In this document: positions 765 to 45,055 of the stretch, piece by piece
Layout: each line of letters starts with the position of its first letter
Position numbering within the stretch: the stretch's first letter is position 1
From: a virus
Direction: 5' to 3' (one strand)
Virus record (IMG/VR): IMGVR_UViG_3300042469_000176
Span: 1 to 46,268 of that record
Length of the DNA stretch: 46,268 bases
The notes under the pieces: model-generated
Seen by the model: the letters and a program-made list of their open reading frames with translations, nothing else
Databases searched by the model: none
Told to the model about the DNA's origin: nothing
Made by a program: the position numbers and the translations under genes

Positions 765-1079
765 ATGAGTTACATTGCAGACATTTGGAGCGACACGCTC
801 GGTTCGGGTTGGGAATATTCGGAATGGTTCGTCGACATCGAGTATGATGGTGGCGATTGGGATAAGCCATCAAACGCTACGCTGATTCACTTCTCTGAAA
901 ATGATGAGTCTGTTATTGTGAAGACTGAGTTCACGCCGGAGATGCTTGTGGAAGCGCATGACAAACTTGTGCGTGAAAAATACACTCACTGCGGTGAGTG
1001 TGGCATGGACGACCCTGACTATTGCACGAGCGACGCAGTGTTGCAGTATATGGTTTATGGTGATCTAATTTATGGTTAA
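765..1079 (+). CDS. Hypothetical protein with Cys pair (104 aa)
   Basis: Two adjacent start codons exist, GTG at 762 and ATG at 765, behind the purine-rich AAGGGGGAA; the ATG is preferred. The product is 104 aa, rich in Asp, Glu and Trp in its first third. A CGEC motif near residue 75 and a Cys about eight residues later could form a partial metal site, but no complete zinc-binding set is present. The stop overlaps the region just before the DUF1599 gene. Function unknown. Confidence 0.65.
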   Translation: MSYIADIWSDTLGSGWEYSEWFVDIEYDGGDWDKPSNATLIHFSENDESVIVKTEFTPEMLVEAHDKLVREKYTHCGECGMDDPDYCTSDAVLQYMVYGDLIYG

Positions 1080-1089
1080 GGAGAATGTG

Positions 1090-1368
1090 GTGAGTTTTGA
1101 GAAAGATGTTGCAGAGAAGTTTAGCGAAGCTGAACTGCTACTGTTGAAGAAGCATCGTGATTATGGGCCTACAAACATTTCAGGTGCGCCGGGTGGTGCG
1201 TTGAACGGTTTGCGTGTTCGTATGCATGACAAGTTGGCACGTATCAATCATTTGATGGATAATGGTGCAACGCCAGAGAATGAAAGTCTACGTGATTCGT
1301 TTATCGATTTGGCAAACTATTCAATCATTGCGCTGATGGTTATTGATAAGCATTGGCCTGATAAGTAA
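1090..1368 (+). CDS. Nucleotide modification associated domain 1 (DUF1599/Nmad1) protein
   Basis: The sequence KHRDYGPTNI, then a GLRVRMHDKLARINHL segment and a LRDSFIDLANYSIIALM helix, is the hallmark of the small DUF1599 (Nmad1) family found in many actinophages and in gene clusters for hypermodified DNA bases. The biochemical activity of the family is not established. An ATG at 1072 is also in frame, but the only good Shine-Dalgarno (AAGGAG at 1078-1083) lies inside that longer version and is spaced for the GTG at 1090, so the shorter 92-aa form is chosen. No other base-modification enzyme was recognised nearby, so it may instead act on nucleotide pools. Confidence 0.8.
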   Translation: MSFEKDVAEKFSEAELLLLKKHRDYGPTNISGAPGGALNGLRVRMHDKLARINHLMDNGATPENESLRDSFIDLANYSIIALMVIDKHWPDK

Positions 1369-1935: not shown

Positions 1936-2253
1936 GTGTCTTCTTTTGTTCCAGCGTATTATGGGATTAAGCGTGAGGCCCGGGATGCTATGACCCGGCT
2001 GGTTGATGCTCAACGCAACGCTGTAGCGAGCGGTGAGTATTGGCCTTGTCTCAGCAACCCATACTTTTATCAGGACTATGACGCTTTAGGGTTTGATGGT
2101 CCACCTCGCAGTCTCACCGAGGATGAATGTGAGGCTTTATGTTATGGTTGCCCATTGTTGAAGCAGTGTTACGATTTTGCTGTAGCGAACGATGAGCAGC
2201 ATGGTATTTGGGGTGGTGTAGATTTTACACCTAAACTTGATACCCTTTTTTAG
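1936..2253 (+). CDS. WhiB-family Fe-S transcriptional regulator
   Basis: GTG start right after the preceding stop. The 105-aa product has the WhiB cysteine set: C38, then C69, C72 and C78 in C-x2-C-x5-C spacing, and the diagnostic G[IV]WGG turn at residues 90-94. An additional Cys sits at 65. WhiB-like proteins bind a 4Fe-4S cluster and act with the host primary sigma factor; they occur only in actinobacteria and their phages, so this is strong host evidence. The usual basic AT-hook-like tail is missing (it ends DFTPKLDTLF), so it may act by contacting sigma rather than DNA. In phages such genes can redirect host transcription. Confidence 0.93.
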   Translation: MSSFVPAYYGIKREARDAMTRLVDAQRNAVASGEYWPCLSNPYFYQDYDALGFDGPPRSLTEDECEALCYGCPLLKQCYDFAVANDEQHGIWGGVDFTPKLDTLF

Positions 2254-7688: not shown

Positions 7689-8125
7689 AGCAAATATTAG
7701 GCGTAGACCCTGGAGGCACTACAGGGTTCTGTGTTATTGAATACGGCCCAGACTCAAGGCCGGTCTTGAAAGAGGCGTGGCAAGAGGCTGGTGGCTTAGG
7801 CGGTGTGCTTGCGATACGTGACAAGATAATCAAACATGAGATTGTTGTTTGCGAATCATTCACACTCCGGCCTGGCGTTAAAATGCCAGACCTTTCACCT
7901 GTATACATTATTGGAGCATTAGAAGCATTAATGCCATACCAAGACAGTCTCGTTTATCAGCAACCGTCAGCTAAAGTTTTATGCCCTGATGAGAAGCTGA
8001 AAAAGATTGGAATGTATCAGGTTGCTAAACCACACGCTAACGATGCTATCCGACACGCTATAATTTACTTAGTGAAAATAAATCATCATAAAACTATAGA
8101 ATGGCTTTGGGATAAGGAAACTTAA
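7685..8125 (+). CDS. RuvC-like Holliday junction resolvase
   Basis: The catalytic pattern of RuvC-fold nucleases is visible: ILGVDPGGTTG with Asp8, VVCESF with Glu57, and HANDAIRHA with His117, Asp120 and His124. The protein is 146 aa from the TTG at 7685, which has AAGG upstream and overlaps the previous stop; a GTG at 7643 would add 14 residues that precede the first beta strand and look non-native. It would cut four-way junctions formed in recombination or in replicating DNA before packaging. Confidence 0.85.
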   Translation: MKQILGVDPGGTTGFCVIEYGPDSRPVLKEAWQEAGGLGGVLAIRDKIIKHEIVVCESFTLRPGVKMPDLSPVYIIGALEALMPYQDSLVYQQPSAKVLCPDEKLKKIGMYQVAKPHANDAIRHAIIYLVKINHHKTIEWLWDKET

Positions 8126-28264: not shown

Positions 28265-30505
28265 TTATTTATTTTCTAAATTTTCAATGCGTGTTGTTAA
28301 ATCTTTAATAATAGCATCTTGATGTTTCAACGCTGAGACCAGTGCAGAAACCATTTCTCCATAGTTAATACCGTCAGGTATTTTTGTGCCATCTTCTAGA
28401 GTCATATAGTTTACAAAAACTTTTAGACTCTCAATTTGATCAACTTCTTCAGCAATAAAACCGCCATAAGTTCTAGCATTTTCATCATCTTCAAGTTCTG
28501 ATTTAAGTTTATAAGCTTTTGGTTTCAAAGCAATTACGTCTTCATAAGTGAAATTTGCGTCTTGAATTTGATCTTTGTAACGCTCAGACGAGGCTGTTCT
28601 TACCAAGTTTCCAGAGTTATCAAAAGTTGCTGTAGTTGAACCCCCGCCAGAAAGCACAGATCTAGTTAAAGCTCCAGTTGAGGTTATACCTGCAGCCTGT
28701 AAGGCTGCGCTACTTGTAAGTGCCCCAGTTGTTCCGCTAATTGTCAAGTTTGAAACATATAAAGTTCCAGTAAGGGTTCCACCAGAAAGTGGAAGATAAG
28801 AGTGGGTGTGGCTTGCTGCCGCGTAGGCAGTAGACGCAGTATAAGCGGCGCTACCAAGACCAAAAATTGATACAGCCTGAGCAGTGCCACCAGACGGTGT
28901 TACAGAAAAAGCTCCATTAGTTGAACCAGAAGCAAAAGTGTATGTTGTGTTATTGTCTGGGGTTGTTACAGTTCCGCCAAGAGAAATTGGAGAACCATTA
29001 ATCGTAATAGAAGAGTTGGTTAGCTTATTGTTTGCGATAGAGCCAGCAAGCATTGCGTTTGTTACTGTGCCAGTATCCGAAGTGGTTACATAGCCAGCAT
29101 GAGTGTGATTACCTAAAGCTACAGTGCTTCCAGTCGTGCCTGTTGGAATTCTTGCAATATCGAAAGTTCCAGAAGTGACATCTGAAGCTGCATGAGCGTG
29201 GCCAACTGCTGAAATGCCAGCCTCGGCTAAAGTTTTATTCTCCCAAAGGTTGCTTGCTGTGCGTTGAATAACTTCACCAGCAGTTACACCATTAATCAAA
29301 ACATCGTGAATTTCATTAAGCTCAAAACCGTTTTGTGGCTTAACAAAAATCTCACCATTATTAGCATTCACACGAGTAACAACACCAATAGAAACAAGAT
29401 GAGCAGGTGCAACAGGTTTGTTTACTAAACCGTAAATTAAGTTTCCTGAAGTGCCCAACCATACAGGAACACCTGCCGTAATAGCAGCTGTAGTATCAAG
29501 CCCAGACAGGAGACCTTCTGTAATCACCTTAACTTTAGCGTTAGTCGAGCCACCAGTTTCAAGTAGACCCATAGTTTTAGAAGAGGTAGCCTCAGAAGCG
29601 TTAGATGCCTTAGACACAATCATGTTTGTGCCATCTGCCGACGAAACATAAACTGCTTGACCCTTGGCGATTGCTTCGCCAAGTTTAACTTCATGTTTTA
29701 GCTGCGAAGTCCAATTAGCGTAGTTGTCAATCCATTGAGTATTGTAGTCTGTTCCGTCAACCTTAGCGAGAATCTGTCCAGCAGTTCCGCCTTCAGCAAT
29801 GCCCGGCCCAGCAGGGCCAGTGGCCCCTGTCGCACCTGTAGCGCCAGTTTCACCCTGTGGCCCCGGTGCGCCTTGAGCGCCCTCCAAAGAAGCCAGCCAT
29901 TCAGCCTCTGTGCCAGTGAAGCCATTTATTTGAGCAACTTGATAAGCAGAAAAACCGTTTAAACCCTGATCGCCCTTATCGCCCTTAGCGCCTGTAGCTC
30001 CAGTGTTACCAGTATCACCCTTAACACCCTGAATACCTTGCTCGCCCTGAATGCCTTGCACACCAGTGTCACCAGTATCGCCCTTAGGCCCCTGAATACC
30101 TTGAATACCCTGATCTCCAGTGTCACCCTTAGGTCCAGCATCACCAGTGTCACCCTTAACACCTTGAATACCCTGAGCCCCTTGATCTCCAGTATCGCCC
30201 TTAACACCTTGAATACCCTGCTCACCTTGCGGCCCAGGCTCACCCTGAACGCCCTGAGCGCCATCAGCGCCGTCAACACCAGGCTCACCCTGTGCACCTT
30301 GCGGACCAGTCGGACCAGCAGGCCCAACCTCACCTTGAGGTCCCTGCGGACCGGCAGGGCCAACAGCCCCCTCGCCGCCAGACGCACCAGAAGACCCATC
30401 AACAAAAACAGAACGCCTTTTATCTAAACGTTTAATCTCATACTCAACCTTATCCGTCCAATCTTCAGATTCGCGCGGCAGGTTAGTGTCAGGAAAAATT
30501 ATCAT
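28265..30505 (-). CDS. Collagen-like fibre protein with C-terminal S74 chaperone domain (746 aa)
   Basis: Residues 1-35 (IIFPDTNLPRESEDWTDKVE) match the anchor of the tail fibre at 12279-13595. Gly-X-Y repeats run from about 40 to 175, with KGDTGDQGIQGIQG-like units, and a second short block from about 210 to 235. A beta-rich shaft follows with LSGGTLTGTLYVSNLTIS. The last ~110 residues (SSERYKDQI, then YGGFIAEEVDQI) are the peptidase S74 intramolecular chaperone, which trimerises and cuts itself off, normally before the conserved Ser of the SERYK motif. It stands between head and connector genes, so it could be a head fibre or a tail fibre placed out of order. Confidence 0.85.
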   Translation of the reverse strand: MIIFPDTNLPRESEDWTDKVEYEIKRLDKRRSVFVDGSSGASGGEGAVGPAGPQGPQGEVGPAGPTGPQGAQGEPGVDGADGAQGVQGEPGPQGEQGIQGVKGDTGDQGAQGIQGVKGDTGDAGPKGDTGDQGIQGIQGPKGDTGDTGVQGIQGEQGIQGVKGDTGNTGATGAKGDKGDQGLNGFSAYQVAQINGFTGTEAEWLASLEGAQGAPGPQGETGATGATGATGPAGPGIAEGGTAGQILAKVDGTDYNTQWIDNYANWTSQLKHEVKLGEAIAKGQAVYVSSADGTNMIVSKASNASEATSSKTMGLLETGGSTNAKVKVITEGLLSGLDTTAAITAGVPVWLGTSGNLIYGLVNKPVAPAHLVSIGVVTRVNANNGEIFVKPQNGFELNEIHDVLINGVTAGEVIQRTASNLWENKTLAEAGISAVGHAHAASDVTSGTFDIARIPTGTTGSTVALGNHTHAGYVTTSDTGTVTNAMLAGSIANNKLTNSSITINGSPISLGGTVTTPDNNTTYTFASGSTNGAFSVTPSGGTAQAVSIFGLGSAAYTASTAYAAASHTHSYLPLSGGTLTGTLYVSNLTISGTTGALTSSAALQAAGITSTGALTRSVLSGGGSTTATFDNSGNLVRTASSERYKDQIQDANFTYEDVIALKPKAYKLKSELEDDENARTYGGFIAEEVDQIESLKVFVNYMTLEDGTKIPDGINYGEMVSALVSALKHQDAIIKDLTTRIENLENK
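29800..30380 (-). repeat. Tandem collagen-coding repeats
   Basis: The DNA repeats short units such as GGTGATACTGG and GGTATTCAGGG in multiples of nine bases, coding Gly-X-Y triplets. Such tracts expand and contract easily, so this is a likely length-variable region. They are coding repeats and not a CRISPR array: units vary and there are no spacers. Confidence 0.8.
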
Positions 30506-38725: not shown

Positions 38726-38925
38726 TCTGTTTCCTCCCAGTAGGCTAAGTTTTCGCCACGTAGGATTGCTAGCACGTAACCGATTCTTTCGTAGTCTGGC
38801 AGGACTCCGAGCACTTCCCATTGATGAGCTGTTAATGCTCGATGGTTGAATGTTACGATGTCGGATTGTTGTGACCAGTGGCCTTCGTCTGTGACGAAGG
38901 CTGTTGGTTGAATGTTTACTGGCAT
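38722..38925 (-). CDS. Hypothetical protein (67 aa)
   Basis: 67 aa from an ATG with GAGGAACTC upstream, overlapping the previous gene by one base. It contains QPTAFVTDEGHWSQQSDIV, then LTAHQWEVLGVLPDYERIGY, with several Trp residues, and ends in acidic EETE. No family recognised. Confidence 0.65.
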   Translation of the reverse strand: MPVNIQPTAFVTDEGHWSQQSDIVTFNHRALTAHQWEVLGVLPDYERIGYVLAILRGENLAYWEETE

Positions 38926-39230
38926 TAGATGAGTTCCTCTTCATCGATTGTTGCTTCGCTGTCTGGCACATAGCGGATGTAGACTGTCCAGGATTTTTTG
39001 TCTGGATGGTTTACTGCTAGGTTGTTGCCGCCTCGTAGCGCGACTTCAATGTTGTCGAATCGTTCTTTCATTCGATACATTGTGGTTGAGTTGTTGATTA
39101 CTTCTGGATACTCTGCCCATTGGTTTGGGTGTTTGTAGAGTTCCTCAATGAATTCGGTGAATTTGTTGAGGTGGTTGCGTCTGCCATCTCTGGCTTGCAC
39201 TTCGTTGTCTGGTACGAATTTGAGTTTCAT
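38925..39230 (-). CDS. Hypothetical protein (101 aa)
   Basis: 101 aa with CGAGGACTC upstream of the ATG and one-base overlaps on both sides. The N-terminal part is basic (ARDGRRNHLNKF), the C-terminus strand-rich and acidic (SWTVYIRYVP, then IDEEELI). No known domain. Confidence 0.65.
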   Translation of the reverse strand: MKLKFVPDNEVQARDGRRNHLNKFTEFIEELYKHPNQWAEYPEVINNSTTMYRMKERFDNIEVALRGGNNLAVNHPDKKSWTVYIRYVPDSEATIDEEELI

Positions 39231-39448
39231 TAGAATGAGTCCTCGTCTAGTTCTAGTAGGTTTGGTGTTTCGTATAGTTCTTCACACCAGTCGATTAGTT
39301 CGTCGTGTGTGATGATGTCTTGCGCATATCTTATGATGTGTGAAAACAGTTCTTCGTTTTTGGTGAAGCTGATTTCGTCTGTATCGTACCAGTCGCAGAG
39401 GTCTGCAATTACTGTATCGATTTTGATTTGGAGTTCTAATGCGTCCAT
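39230..39448 (-). CDS. Hypothetical acidic protein (72 aa)
   Basis: 72 aa, very acidic (LCDWYDTDEISFTKNEELF and LIDWCEELYETPNLLELDED), all helical by pattern. AAGGAATGATACAAA precedes the ATG, and a GC-clamped hairpin (39477-39502) lies 30 bases upstream. It comes immediately after the amidoligase gene. Acidic DNA mimic or enzyme partner roles are possible but unsupported. Confidence 0.65.
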   Translation of the reverse strand: MDALELQIKIDTVIADLCDWYDTDEISFTKNEELFSHIIRYAQDIITHDELIDWCEELYETPNLLELDEDSF

Positions 39449-39476
39449 TTTGTATCATTCCTTAGGGTTGGGTTGT

Positions 39477-39502
39477 GGGGGGCCACAGTGTTGTGACCCC
39501 CC
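39477..39502 (-). ncRNA. GC-clamped leader hairpin D
   Basis: On the minus strand GGGGGG-T-CACA pairs with TGTG-G-CCCCCC around a four-base loop, one mismatch. No T-run follows on the minus strand, so it is not a usual terminator. Like leader elements A and B it is followed by a G-poor A/C linker (ACAACCCAACCC) and a Shine-Dalgarno. It lacks their conserved core. Confidence 0.5.
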
Positions 39503-39508
39503 GTTTTG

Positions 39509-41080
39509 TTAACTGTTGTATACGTATTCGTTTTTGAGTTCTAGCGCGATGTGTGCTTTGTCAACTTTTGATCCGTATACGTGTCCGTCTACTTGCTCGA
39601 AGCCGAGTTTGTAGTTGAACTTTTTGAACACTTCGAAAATTCCTGCGATTGTGTTAATGTTTTTGTAATCGTAGAATTTTGCTCCGCGTTTTGCGCAGGT
39701 TACGATGCCGCGCACGATGGCTGCCCAGATGGTGATTTCTCGCCAATCGAAGTTGCATGCCATTTGACGGAACTCGATGGTGCCTCTGCTTTCGTTTTTG
39801 AGGTGCATCAGGTTCACTGCGTATGCTTTGTCGCCGTATAGTGTTGGCTGGTTTTTGCGCATAGCGTTTCCTAGCATTTCGCTAGTGATTGTTTGCGCAT
39901 ATCCGGTGCCTTCACGTCCTGCAATTTTTGTTAGCACATTTGTTAGTAGTGCATATGTTGCAACGACTTGACATACTTGTGACATGTTTAGGTCTCTAGC
40001 GAATACGTGAATGTGAACGCCTGCAGTGTCGTTGTTTTCGGCTTCTGCAGCTATCAGGTCTTCTGATAGTTTGACTAGGCCTGTGTGTATGCCTCGTGAG
40101 ATTCCGCCTTGTGAACGGAATTCTGCACTGTCACAGCTTGCGCAGTATGATGCTCCACAGTGGTCTGGGCTGTCGTTTTGTGATTCGCAATAGTCACAGT
40201 CACATTCGTGGTATGTGCAGTCATCGCAGTCGCATTCGCATTCATTGGTTGACTCGTATGATCTTAGTGAACCATCTTCGCCTTTCTCAATGCCTGAGCT
40301 TGATGCTACGTCGACACCTTTAGCGTCTGGGACTTCTACTTCGAAGCCCCATGTTCTTGATGTTAGCCAGTTTCCTGGCATCTCGATGTCTTCGAGTTCG
40401 CTACGAATATCTGCATAGCTTGCTTCGTGGTTTTCGCCACGCAGCTTTTTCATGATGTTCCATGCGCCTACGCTTGATTTTACTTCTTCGTTTGCATACT
40501 TGCGAATGTGTGAGAAGTATTCTTCGTAAATGCTGATTGCTTTTACGTAATCTTCTTTAGTGATTACTCGGTCAATTAGAACATCTAGGACGTTAATTGT
40601 TTTGTATACGTTTTCAGCTTCACCTGTGTCAATGTTTGTTCTTGCGAACACAGGGAATGAATGGTCAGTGTTGAGCCTAATCATTTGCTGGTTTACTCCC
40701 CATCCGGTGGTGTCGCGTCCGAATGTGTCATCGAATCTGTTTACTGCTTGGAAGTAAGCTAACCAGACAATGACTTCTGGTCGCTTACCTTCGAGCTGTT
40801 TTAGTCTTTCTTGAGCTTCGTCTGCGTCCATTCGTCGCCAGATTGGGCTTGACATCAGTATTGATACTGCTTTGTTTTTGATGTCGAATGCGGTGCTGCC
40901 TGCTGATTCGCCGTATTCTCCGAGTGCTGTTTCTAGTTGGAGTTTTATTAGGCGTTCTTTGCTGTTGCGCACTTCATATGTTTCAGTTGTTGGTTCTGTT
41001 TTGTAACTGTCATCTGCAAGGATTAGCTTTTTAGCTTCTTGTAACGCTTCGCGTAATCCTTTTAGTGTTTGATTTCCCAT
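39509..41080 (-). CDS. Predicted amidoligase (COOH-NH2 ligase) with Cys-rich insert (523 aa)
   Basis: The C-terminal half has amidoligase-family motifs: WGFEVEVPD (ExE metal/ATP site) near 245, EDGSLRS near 268, DTAGVHIHVF near 350, NLMHLKNESRGTIEFRQ near 430, then a WAAIVRGIV helix. These glutamine-synthetase-like enzymes join carboxylates to amines using ATP. Between the DGS motif and the next helix a 40-residue insert carries a dozen or so cysteines (CECDCDDC, CDCDYC, CASC), probably a zinc or Fe-S knuckle. The first ~230 residues are an all-helical extra domain. Divergently transcribed from a glutamine amidotransferase gene, a recurrent pairing in this superfamily. AAAGGAG precedes the ATG. 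Confidence 0.8.
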   Translation of the reverse strand: MGNQTLKGLREALQEAKKLILADDSYKTEPTTETYEVRNSKERLIKLQLETALGEYGESAGSTAFDIKNKAVSILMSSPIWRRMDADEAQERLKQLEGKRPEVIVWLAYFQAVNRFDDTFGRDTTGWGVNQQMIRLNTDHSFPVFARTNIDTGEAENVYKTINVLDVLIDRVITKEDYVKAISIYEEYFSHIRKYANEEVKSSVGAWNIMKKLRGENHEASYADIRSELEDIEMPGNWLTSRTWGFEVEVPDAKGVDVASSSGIEKGEDGSLRSYESTNECECDCDDCTYHECDCDYCESQNDSPDHCGASYCASCDSAEFRSQGGISRGIHTGLVKLSEDLIAAEAENNDTAGVHIHVFARDLNMSQVCQVVATYALLTNVLTKIAGREGTGYAQTITSEMLGNAMRKNQPTLYGDKAYAVNLMHLKNESRGTIEFRQMACNFDWREITIWAAIVRGIVTCAKRGAKFYDYKNINTIAGIFEVFKKFNYKLGFEQVDGHVYGSKVDKAHIALELKNEYVYNS

Positions 41081-41236
41081 TTTGGTTTTCTGCTCCTTTA
41101 ATTGCAGGTTATGGTGTTTGTGCAGCTGGATGCTGCGATTGTTGGGATGATGACAAATGTCATCATGAATATTACTGATATTAATGTTATGAATGTTGCT
41201 GTTGATTTATTTCGGCCAAATACTCCTAATATGTTT
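41081..41236 (-). other. Untranslated or short-ORF region between leader C and the amidoligase gene
   Basis: No convincing gene. On the minus strand AGGAG (41227-41223) follows leader C but only a ten-codon TTG frame (41219-41187) begins near it. Another frame encodes a membrane-like stretch (ATFITLISVIFMMTFVIIPT) ending at 41098 without a suitable start; one missing base would join the two. The region also contains the 20-bp palindrome at 41147-41166. Confidence 0.4.
41147..41166. promoter_or_regulatory. Perfect 20-bp palindrome, candidate operator
   Basis: ATGATGACA-AA-TGTCATCAT has nine-base arms around two bases, 67-86 bases upstream of the amidoligase ATG. The half site TGACA/TGTCA recurs at 41330-41334 and 41351-41355 further upstream, in inverted orientation. 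Confidence 0.5.
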
Positions 41237-41299
41237 GGGGGGCCGAGCTGTTCTCGACCCCTGCAAGAATACCAAGAGAGAGACAACGGCGAGAGCCCC
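41237..41299 (-). ncRNA. Structured leader element C (5' region of the amidoligase operon)
   Basis: GGGGC (41299-41295) pairs with GCCCC (41243-41239), with a further CATAT/ATATG pairing outside after a small bulge. The core TCTCGCCGTTGTCTCT matches elements A and B, and a hairpin CGAG/CTCG takes the position of their 3' hairpin. The linker AAACATATT and AGGAG follow as in A and B. The start codon served by that AGGAG is unclear. Confidence 0.65.
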
Positions 41300-41440
41300 A
41301 TATGTTTTTTTTCTTTTTATTACATTTTGTGACAGCAGCCGGCATAATAGTGTCATATAGGTGGCGTTTTTTTTGAATTTTTGCCGGGGTTTTTACATCT
41401 ATTTCGTGGAGAACGAACATAAAGCCCCCGATCTTTCGAC
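41300..41440. other. Divergent regulatory gap, no gene seen
   Basis: T-rich on the plus strand, with inverted half sites TGACA and TGTCA (41330-41355), and TTTCGTGGAGA (41403-41413 region), similar to TTTTGTGGAAA found upstream of leaders A and B. On the minus strand TATGTT followed by CTCCACGAAA may be the promoter of the amidoligase operon. No reading frame here looks coding. Confidence 0.4.
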
Positions 41441-41470
41441 TTGACAAACCCCACCGGCATCCACTAAACT
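41441..41470 (+). promoter_or_regulatory. Sigma70-type promoter for the glutamine amidotransferase gene (distal)
   Basis: TTGACA (41441-41446), 18-base spacer, TAAACT (41465-41470). The -35 is perfect and the -10 fits the actinobacterial TAnnnT. It points to the amidotransferase gene with a leader of about 140 bases. Confidence 0.65.
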
Positions 41471-41537
41471 AGACATAACGAAATAGGAAAACCCCCACAA
41501 GGGCAAAAAAAAAGTTGAAAAAGTTTCACCCAAATGC

Positions 41538-41566
41538 TTGCGCCGACGGAGTTTTTCCTGTAAACT
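41538..41566 (+). promoter_or_regulatory. Second sigma70-type promoter (proximal)
   Basis: TTGCGC (41538-41543), 17-base spacer, TAAACT (41561-41566), the same -10 as the distal promoter. It would start transcription around 41573. A small GC hairpin GGCCC-GGAT-GGGCC (41588-41601) follows just before the ATG region. Confidence 0.5.
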
Positions 41567-41618
41567 GTAGTTACAAGTTCTTTTAGTGGCCCGGATGGGC
41601 CGGATTGGTTTTGATATT

Positions 41619-42683
41619 ATGTGTGGAATTTCTGGTTTTAGTTTGTCTTATGGTTCTAAGATTAATGCTCGTAAGTTGGCGCATGCGCTTCTGTGTGAGA
41701 TCGAGTCTCGTGGTTCGCAGGCTTCTGGTGTTGCGTGGCAGTCTGAGCATGCTTCTGGTGTGTTTAAGGATGCTGTTCGTGGTTCTCAGTTGTCGTTACG
41801 TGCGTTGCCTAAGCGGGCTTCGTCTGTGATTTTGCACACTCGTTATGCGACGCATGGTGCTACGTCTGTGTCTGCGAATAATCATCCTGTGTCGTCGCCG
41901 GATGGCAATATTGCTTTGGTGCATAATGGTGTGATTTATAATCATGAGTTGGTGCGTAAGCAGTTTAGTTTTAAGTTGCCGGAGGTGGATACTTCTGTTA
42001 TTCCTGCTATTTTGCAGAAGTTTGGTTCTGAGCGTTTTGATATGTTGGATGGTGATGCGTCTGTTGCGTGGTTGGATGAGTCTGATCGTGGTGTGTTGCG
42101 TGTTGGTCGTGTGTCTCATTCTCCGTTGGTTGTTGCGCAGTTGGTTGATGGTTCGTTTGTGTTTGCGTCGACTGAGCCTTTGTTGCGTGATGCTTTGAAG
42201 CGTGTTGGTTTGAAGCCTGTGTGGGTTGAGGTGGCTCCGGAGTATCGTTTGTATACGGTGCGTTTGGGTCGTATTGATTCTGTTGGTGATTTGCCGGCGA
42301 CTTCTGAGGAGTTTTTTACTCCTATGGATGCGTATTCGTATAAGAAGTATCGTGGTATGACTGCTGGTGGTGTTAAGTCTGCTGGTTATTGGTATGATGA
42401 TGCTGTTTCGGGTGTGATGTCTTATTCTCCTGTTGAGGAGGAGTTGGAGGAGGACTTTGAGCAGTTCTTGTGTCAGTTTGTTGAGTATGATGGTATGTTC
42501 TATGATATGCGTGGTGTCCCGGTGGGTAATGCTTATCAGGTGCGTGAGCAGTTTGAGGATTACCGCTATAACGAGTATTGGGCGACTAGGAAGTATGGGT
42601 ATAATCCGTATTCGTTTACTGAGGGTTCGTTTGATCCTGAGACGTTTGATGGGTCTTATGATGAGTGGGCTGGTTTGAAGTAG
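41619..42683 (+). CDS. Class II glutamine amidotransferase (354 aa)
   Basis: The ATG at 41619 is chosen because it yields MCGISGF with Cys2 as the N-terminal nucleophile of Ntn-type glutaminases; the longer frame from 41586 would bury it. Other family motifs are HTRYATHG at 73-80, NNHP near 88 and VHNGVIYN at 101-108. It should release ammonia from glutamine for a partner ligase. No synthase or sugar isomerase domain follows; residues ~215-354 are Tyr- and acid-rich and unrecognised. The gene is extremely G+T-rich on its coding strand (GGT, GTT, TTG codons). It is divergent from the amidoligase gene, its likely partner. Confidence 0.85.
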   Translation: MCGISGFSLSYGSKINARKLAHALLCEIESRGSQASGVAWQSEHASGVFKDAVRGSQLSLRALPKRASSVILHTRYATHGATSVSANNHPVSSPDGNIALVHNGVIYNHELVRKQFSFKLPEVDTSVIPAILQKFGSERFDMLDGDASVAWLDESDRGVLRVGRVSHSPLVVAQLVDGSFVFASTEPLLRDALKRVGLKPVWVEVAPEYRLYTVRLGRIDSVGDLPATSEEFFTPMDAYSYKKYRGMTAGGVKSAGYWYDDAVSGVMSYSPVEEELEEDFEQFLCQFVEYDGMFYDMRGVPVGNAYQVREQFEDYRYNEYWATRKYGYNPYSFTEGSFDPETFDGSYDEWAGLK

Positions 42684-44566: not shown

Positions 44567-45055
44567 ATGCAAACATTTCTACCCTACACAGACTTTAAAG
44601 CGTCTGCCCGGGCGTTAGACAACAAGCGTCTCAACAAGCAAATACTAGAATGCTACCAGATCCTCAAGGTGCTATCTAGCGACGACCCTCACGCTGGTTG
44701 GCGTAACCATCCAGCAGTTAAAATGTGGCGTGGCTACGAGCGTGGCTTGTGGGACTATGTGACCGCTATGGTTGCTGAAGGTGAGAAGCGTGGCATCAGG
44801 GTTGAAAAGAACGTCAACAACCTTGTAGCCCTCGCTCAAGCCAACGCAAGCAGGTGGGGTGATGGCCTCCCGGCATGGTTCAACGACACGCCCACAGTTG
44901 CTAAAGTATTAGCAACCCACAAAGCGAACCTGTATCTTAAAGACCCAATCTTTTATTGGTTCTTTGCGGATGCAATCAACGACGACGACAACAAGCCATG
45001 TTGTGAACGTTGCAACTACTTCTGGGTCACACATGTTAAGGAGAACACTAAGTGA
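44567..45055 (+). CDS. MSMEG_6728-like protein, pyrimidine-dimer glycosylase family
   Basis: The N-terminus MQTFLPYTDFKASARALDNK and the following RLNKQILECYQILKVL, GWRNHPAVKMWRGYE are characteristic of the MSMEG_6728 / T4 endonuclease V-like family common in actinobacteria and their phages. In endonuclease V the mature N-terminal residue forms the Schiff base; here that would be Gln2, unlike the Thr of T4, so glycosylase activity is uncertain. A C-terminal CCERCNY motif may bind metal. It may protect or modify DNA. Confidence 0.8.
   Translation: MQTFLPYTDFKASARALDNKRLNKQILECYQILKVLSSDDPHAGWRNHPAVKMWRGYERGLWDYVTAMVAEGEKRGIRVEKNVNNLVALAQANASRWGDGLPAWFNDTPTVAKVLATHKANLYLKDPIFYWFFADAINDDDNKPCCERCNYFWVTHVKENTK

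Follow-up and report, generated by a model that had tools for sequence, protein, structure and literature searches.

Phage gene clusters that combine an amidoligase with a class II glutamine amidotransferase (GATase) were reportedly interpreted by Iyer et al. in 2009. In LUZ24-like Pseudomonas phages (PaP3, tf and UFV-P2; PMC3890496) and in phiEco32-type phages, an amidoligase of family PF12224 adjoins a class II GATase or lies near it. Adjoining amidoligase and class II GATase genes are also annotated in actinophages, namely the Arthrobacter phages Laroye and Salgado (cluster AL) and Ottawa; for cluster AL, amidoligase and gamma-glutamylcyclotransferase genes have been named (PMC5513430). Genes of families PF12224 and PF13522 occur in the OM43 phages MEP401 and MEP402 and in more than 30 marine viral genomes, with mycobacteriophage Marvin cited alongside (PMC10580990); these phages have other hosts and are likened to the present locus by their gene families alone. 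Related pairs have been guessed, as cited in PMC10580990, to modify the cell wall against superinfection or to synthesize secondary metabolites. Here we analyze a pair of this kind in the IMG/VR virus record IMGVR_UViG_3300042469_000176, the whole 46,268 bases of which are hereinafter designated the window. The amidoligase is encoded at 39509–41080 on the minus strand and the GATase at 41619–42683 on the plus strand, in agreement with the coordinates originally given. The pairing itself is already known in cultured phages; new here are the reduced composition of the locus, a Cys-rich insert in the amidoligase, a tied gene for a small protein of 101 amino acids (s101) and a covarying hairpin in the GATase leader.

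The reduced composition is evident from comparison with the described systems. The LUZ24- and phiEco32-type clusters contain a COOH-NH2 ligase (PF14395), an ATP-grasp protein and a gamma-glutamylcyclotransferase, none of which was found in the window. Specifically, phmmer searches with the ATP-grasp and COOH-NH2 ligase proteins of PaP3 and MW202615 gave no relative in the window or the related contigs L002–L062, and the R2K_3 profile, for which the control was weak, has no match in the window. Gamma-glutamylcyclotransferase was detected neither in the window nor in any of 13 related records by a search that finds it in both Arthrobacter controls. The window GATase is 38–39% identical to the Arthrobacter phage GATase over ~210–225 residues. 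Unlike the window pair, the pair of Laroye, Salgado and Ottawa is co-directional, with the gamma-glutamylcyclotransferase gene upstream, and the Arthrobacter phage amidoligase has neither the Cys-rich insert nor the long N-terminal extension and belongs to a separate, well supported group of the tree.

Catalytic sites and predicted fold

The amidoligase (523 amino acids) consists of a helical N-terminal extension (residues 1–236) and a catalytic domain (residues ~240–497) resembling glutamine synthetase (GS) and YbdK. The original prediction had identified it from short motifs, which proved to be real and invariant or nearly so among 37 aligned sequences. Specifically, E247, E249, D269, G354, H356, E436 and R438 are invariant, while H358 (at least 90%), S271, D363, N423, T434 and F437 are nearly so. 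The ExE, GxHxH and ExR active-site motifs are all present, and their residues presumably correspond to those for metal and substrate in the GS superfamily, an assignment made by motif order and not by residue superposition. The protein matches PF12224 (Amidoligase_2) over residues 338–457 with an E-value of 9.4e-6 and 26.1 bits, above the curated cut-off of 22 bits, and also matches PHROG amidoligase families; 32 of the 37 aligned sequences match PF12224 individually (E up to 0.1, best 8.5e-16).

A tblastn search with the full-length amidoligase gave remote, partial matches only, and a scan of viral contigs with the single amidoligase protein gave no relatives. Solved structures searched by sequence with the amidoligase profile gave no meaningful match, so that comparison of folds was needed instead. 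In the AlphaFold2 model, built on the 37-sequence alignment, the predicted local distance difference test (pLDDT) score is mostly above 90 over residues 221–270 and 321–490. The best match by VIA-align is YbdK, with Z of 11.4 and root-mean-square deviation of 3.8 over 195 residues, accompanied by glutamine synthetase (Z 11.0) and the depupylase Dop (Z ~10.3); the YbdK and GS matches span 180–195 residues, and identity to the proteins of this fold is ~11%. The catalytic domain is predicted to adopt the fold of GS/YbdK-type carboxylate-amine ligases, and ATP-dependent amide formation is predicted from the sequence. The N-terminal extension of ~236 residues is confined to the long-form amidoligases, and a family search with residues 1–236 gave no convincing family.

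The GATase (354 amino acids) contains a GlmS-like glutaminase domain (residues 1–200) and a variable C-terminal part. It matches PF13522 (2.2e-20) and PF13537 (1.5e-12), and its profile is closest among solved structures to the GlmS glutaminases (8.9e-24). The protein begins with Met-Cys, which places the Cys nucleophile directly after the initiator Met; C2 and the glutamine-site residues R75, N103, G104 and D124 do not vary among 43 sequences. Every expected active-site residue is therefore in place, consistent with the class II glutaminase that had been proposed from the motifs, and the catalytic sites of both enzymes are intact. The start codon is ATG 41619. The in-frame GTG at 41586 was considered as an alternative start and rejected, because the leaders of the relatives L003 and L009 have in-frame stops 15–24 nucleotides before the ATG.

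Linkage of the two genes and their small neighbors

A scan of IMG/VR anchored on the GATase yielded 61 relatives. The amidoligase adjoins the GATase in all 56 contigs that extend upstream; five contigs (L018, L037, L038, L044 and L045), in which the GATase lies at most 360 bases from the contig end, were left out. In a scan anchored on the amidoligase, the GATase is present in 13 of 14 loci, and the exception, L072, begins beside a contig end. Those 13 loci are the same contigs as in the GATase-anchored set and thus test the direction of the search rather than provide an independent sample.

Four arrangements of the pair were found among the related contigs. The genes are divergent, as in the window; or run in one direction in the order amidoligase, s101, GATase (L016, L017 and L031); or follow each other as amidoligase and GATase (L041–L043, L047–L050, L061 and L062); or are ordered as GATase, one other gene and amidoligase (L051–L060). 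The tree places the operon form of L016 and L017 within the divergent clade (starred support 97/87), which indicates that the gene order changed while the pairing was kept. In L053 and L054, the GATase is flanked by two amidoligase-like genes. Amidoligase and GATase protein distances correlate with r of 0.75 (n = 55), and the partial r given terminase distance is 0.42 (n = 31). The genetic linkage of the two genes is strong. The association proposed originally is borne out in both search directions and across several gene orders; with the PF12224 match above its cut-off, we found no sign that the larger protein is something other than an amidoligase, or that related phages carry the two genes independently.

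Downstream of the amidoligase, in the same operon, lie genes for two small proteins, s72 (72 amino acids; 39230–39448, minus strand) and s101 (38925–39230, minus strand). The s101 gene is present in all 14 amidoligase-anchored loci. Of the 18 loci that have it, 17 place it co-directionally downstream of the amidoligase, and its association with the long form of that enzyme is tight. The N-terminal helical extension and the tightly linked s101 gene are additions of the window's subclade. The s101 model (pLDDT 76) gives weak matches to KhpB/R3H (Z 6.6) and PARN (Z 6.3), scores that unrelated folds may also attain, and Pfam matches of the s101 family are at chance level only. The s72 gene is patchy, with seven loci only, and neither family was detected beside short-form amidoligases. 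The original prediction described small acidic proteins here. This description fits s72, with 21 Asp/Glu against 3 Lys/Arg (counted by eye), and is too strong for s101, which is mildly acidic only.

Cys-rich insert and regulatory region

The catalytic domain of the amidoligase carries a Cys-rich insert of ~33 residues (residues 281–313, CECDCDDCTYHECDCDYCESQNDSPDHCGASYC; 40142–40240, minus strand) between the DGS strand and the E320 strand. Close relatives share the pattern CxCxCxxC-x-YH-x-CxCxxC...HC...C, and every complete close amidoligase has the exact core CxCxCxxC except those of L030 and L036, in which the first Cys alone is lacking. The insert is absent from the outlying group L051–L062 and from the Arthrobacter (Salgado and Ottawa), PaP3, GP100 and Bacillus phage amidoligases compared. 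YbdK, glutamine synthetase and Dop/PafA share the fold of the catalytic domain, and the insert is peculiar to the window's phage clade. In the AlphaFold2 model, the insert has pLDDT below 50 and is unplaced. A small separate protein of Salgado, gp96 (L063 3785–4315), has a CTCDCAPC...HC motif resembling the insert; its gene lies two genes upstream of the Salgado amidoligase. The occurrence of such a motif outside an amidoligase is a hint, though no proof, that the Cys-rich module is mobile.

The amidoligase and the GATase had been proposed to share a regulatory gap with promoters and a structured leader, and each of these proposals holds in part. A σ70-like promoter for the GATase, TTGACA-18-TAAACT (41441–41470, plus strand), has a conserved position in relatives. 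TTGACA is invariant in eight aligned intergenic regions, and promoters of the type TTGACA-N17/18-TANNNT are found in 18 of 18 GATase leaders, starting 61–85 and/or 158–179 nucleotides before the ATG. The evidence for this promoter is its conservation, because the promoter-like matches in the intergenic stretch of the window are by themselves not above chance (9 versus 6.7 ± 2.8).

Likewise, the stability of the entire 144-nucleotide GATase leader is unexceptional (z −0.27), but the leader contains a short hairpin with covariation, GGCCC-GGAT-GGGCC followed by GGA (41588–41601, plus strand), which starts 31 nucleotides before the GATase ATG. In the window-type subclade, this hairpin has 5 bp, the loop sequence GGAY and a tail of GGA and starts ~30 nucleotides before the ATG. 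It is 100% paired in 11 distinct sequences, with four of the five pairs changed on both sides and 12 cells with compensatory changes. None of 500 shuffles attains the pairing or the covariation score, and controls with slid partners are 18–46% paired. The sole other copy with a GGA tail in the window is within the terminase gene.

In the window, L002, L005, L006 and L010, an upstream GTG or TTG would allow in-frame reading of the hairpin region, and a leader peptide was therefore considered. It was rejected in view of the in-frame stops between hairpin and ATG in L003 and L009, the lack of a start codon there in L007, and the pairing maintained by compensatory changes. The reading frame from hairpin to ATG is not maintained among relatives; the hairpin therefore resembles a nucleic-acid element more than a leader peptide, and it may act as RNA or as a palindromic DNA operator.

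Two further stable GC-rich hairpins belong to the minus-strand transcript of the amidoligase. One lies in the 5' leader of the amidoligase RNA (approximately 41238–41261; −17.6 kcal/mol, z −3.2), with a similar one in L002, and the other between the amidoligase stop codon and s72 (approximately 39477–39502; −23.3 kcal/mol, z −3.8). Like elements stand before the GATase in L016 (~7925–8000, plus strand) and before s72 in the window (39440–39502, minus strand), both in the order GC-rich hairpin GGGGGTC...GGCCCCC, ACAACC, AAGGA and next start codon.

Host and possible chemistry of the pair

The virus record encodes terminase, portal, head protease, tail, primase and M23 endopeptidase proteins. 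A gene for ~467 amino acids trails the GATase region in 33 relatives and is missing between the two ends of the window (1 and 46268); a little of the genome is thus probably absent from the record. A gene for a WhiB transcription factor lies at 1936–2253 (plus strand; PF02467, 3.3e-10). WhiB was detected in 14 of 15 related records as well; when 14 genomes were searched as a control, Corynebacterium was the sole positive. The window terminase is closest to those of Arthrobacter phages (43–44%). Together, the distribution of WhiB and the terminase relationship indicate that the host is very probably an actinobacterium. The bacterial genomes searched contained no relative of the amidoligase or the GATase and gave no host or prophage link, and a nucleotide search of 20000–42700 against cultured phages gave no match. 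Padloc found no match in the window, and Rfam found two tRNAs and nothing else. The window also encodes a pyrimidine dimer DNA glycosylase (44567–45055, plus strand; PF03013, 7e-20), with relatives in ~9 other loci, and a long collagen-like tail fiber protein (28265–30505, minus strand) with many PHROG tail-fiber matches.

We consider it fairly likely that the pair is a phage-encoded glutamine-dependent amidating enzyme acting in the actinobacterial host, a mechanism supported by the intact catalytic sites, the predicted GS/carboxylate-amine-ligase fold and the constant linkage. Specifically, the class II GATase, with its N-terminal Cys nucleophile, would release ammonia from glutamine, and the ammonia would be passed to the amidoligase. 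The GS-fold amidoligase would activate a carboxylate with ATP as an acyl-phosphate and join ammonia to it, forming an amide. The Cys-rich insert may bind metal and aid the binding of a substrate or partner at the active site, while the leader hairpin may tune GATase synthesis. As to the acceptor, the leading candidate is a free carboxylate of the peptidoglycan stem peptide or its precursor, though this is speculative and possible rather than probable; if it is the acceptor, the host wall would be altered during infection.

Several points weigh against this mechanism. A literature search found no biochemistry for any phage amidoligase–GATase pair, and nothing in the sequence names the acceptor. 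Part of the coevolution between amidoligase and GATase is shared phage ancestry, because amidoligase and terminase distances correlate too after removal of the GATase distance (0.37). In addition, the carboxylate-amine ligase YbdK, the best structural match, takes amino acids and not ammonia, and Dop removes Pup; with fold matches of this type, the amine may not be ammonia.

The amidoligase could instead join an amino acid or another amine to a carboxylate, as gamma-glutamate-cysteine ligase and YbdK do, with the GATase acting on the gamma-glutamyl product or supplying glutamate. YbdK is indeed the best fold match, though effectively tied with GS, and the PaP3- and Laroye-type pairs sit with a gamma-glutamylcyclotransferase (in PaP3 also with an ATP-grasp protein), which suggests gamma-glutamyl chemistry. 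However, the gamma-glutamylcyclotransferase found in both Arthrobacter controls was not found in the window or the 13 related records, and the conserved glutaminase fits a supply of ammonia more simply. We regard this alternative as rather unlikely.

The original prediction suggested the small proteins as substrates, and a pupylation-like tagging of s101 or s72 by a PafA-like ligase would agree with the Dop-type folds among the structural matches (Z 10.3) and with the tight tie of s101 to the long-form amidoligase. This is very unlikely given that the C-termini of s101 vary (ELI, ETF, KK, K) with no conserved Glu/Gln acceptor end, that its model is weakly nucleic-acid-binding-like, that s72 is patchy, and that neither family was detected beside short-form amidoligases. 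The proposed substrate role of the small proteins is thus unsupported.

Modification of phage DNA or nucleotides, for example in a deazaguanine or hypermodified pyrimidine pathway using a class II GATase, is slightly less likely still. It would agree with the presence of DUF1599 ('nucleotide modification associated domain 1') in a protein encoded at 1072–1368 (plus strand), but this protein is present in only 3 of 15 related records, no QueC was found in the window (from which a small part of the genome is probably missing), and searches of the window and 13 related records detected no thymidylate synthase-like enzyme. Least likely of all, the two could be unrelated accessory genes at a conserved spot of one phage lineage, as the wider genome layout common to most close relatives would allow, but the two genes remain linked under several different orders and also in distantly related phages (Pseudomonas, Arthrobacter and a spring-water contig).

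The glutamine-dependent amidation that we favor can be extended to the new features of the locus. The Cys-rich insert would be a metal- or redox-responsive module that makes an ATP-grasp-free, two-protein amidating enzyme specific for a carboxylate of the actinobacterial wall or of a protein, and the glutaminase supply would be RNA-controlled by the leader hairpin, perhaps read by s101 with its weak R3H-like match. We consider this combined proposal unlikely; if true, it would describe a self-regulated, metal-gated phage amidation system.

Phage amidoligase–GATase pairs have been annotated for more than 15 years, and a literature search found no experimentally known substrate. The lineage described here carries a minimal two-enzyme core and one small partner in dozens of uncultured actinophages, which makes the function easier to test, and it offers concrete novelties in the Cys-rich insert and in the hairpin that covaries in the GATase leader. 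Should the pair act on the cell wall, it would show how phages protect the infected cell or alter their own lysis.

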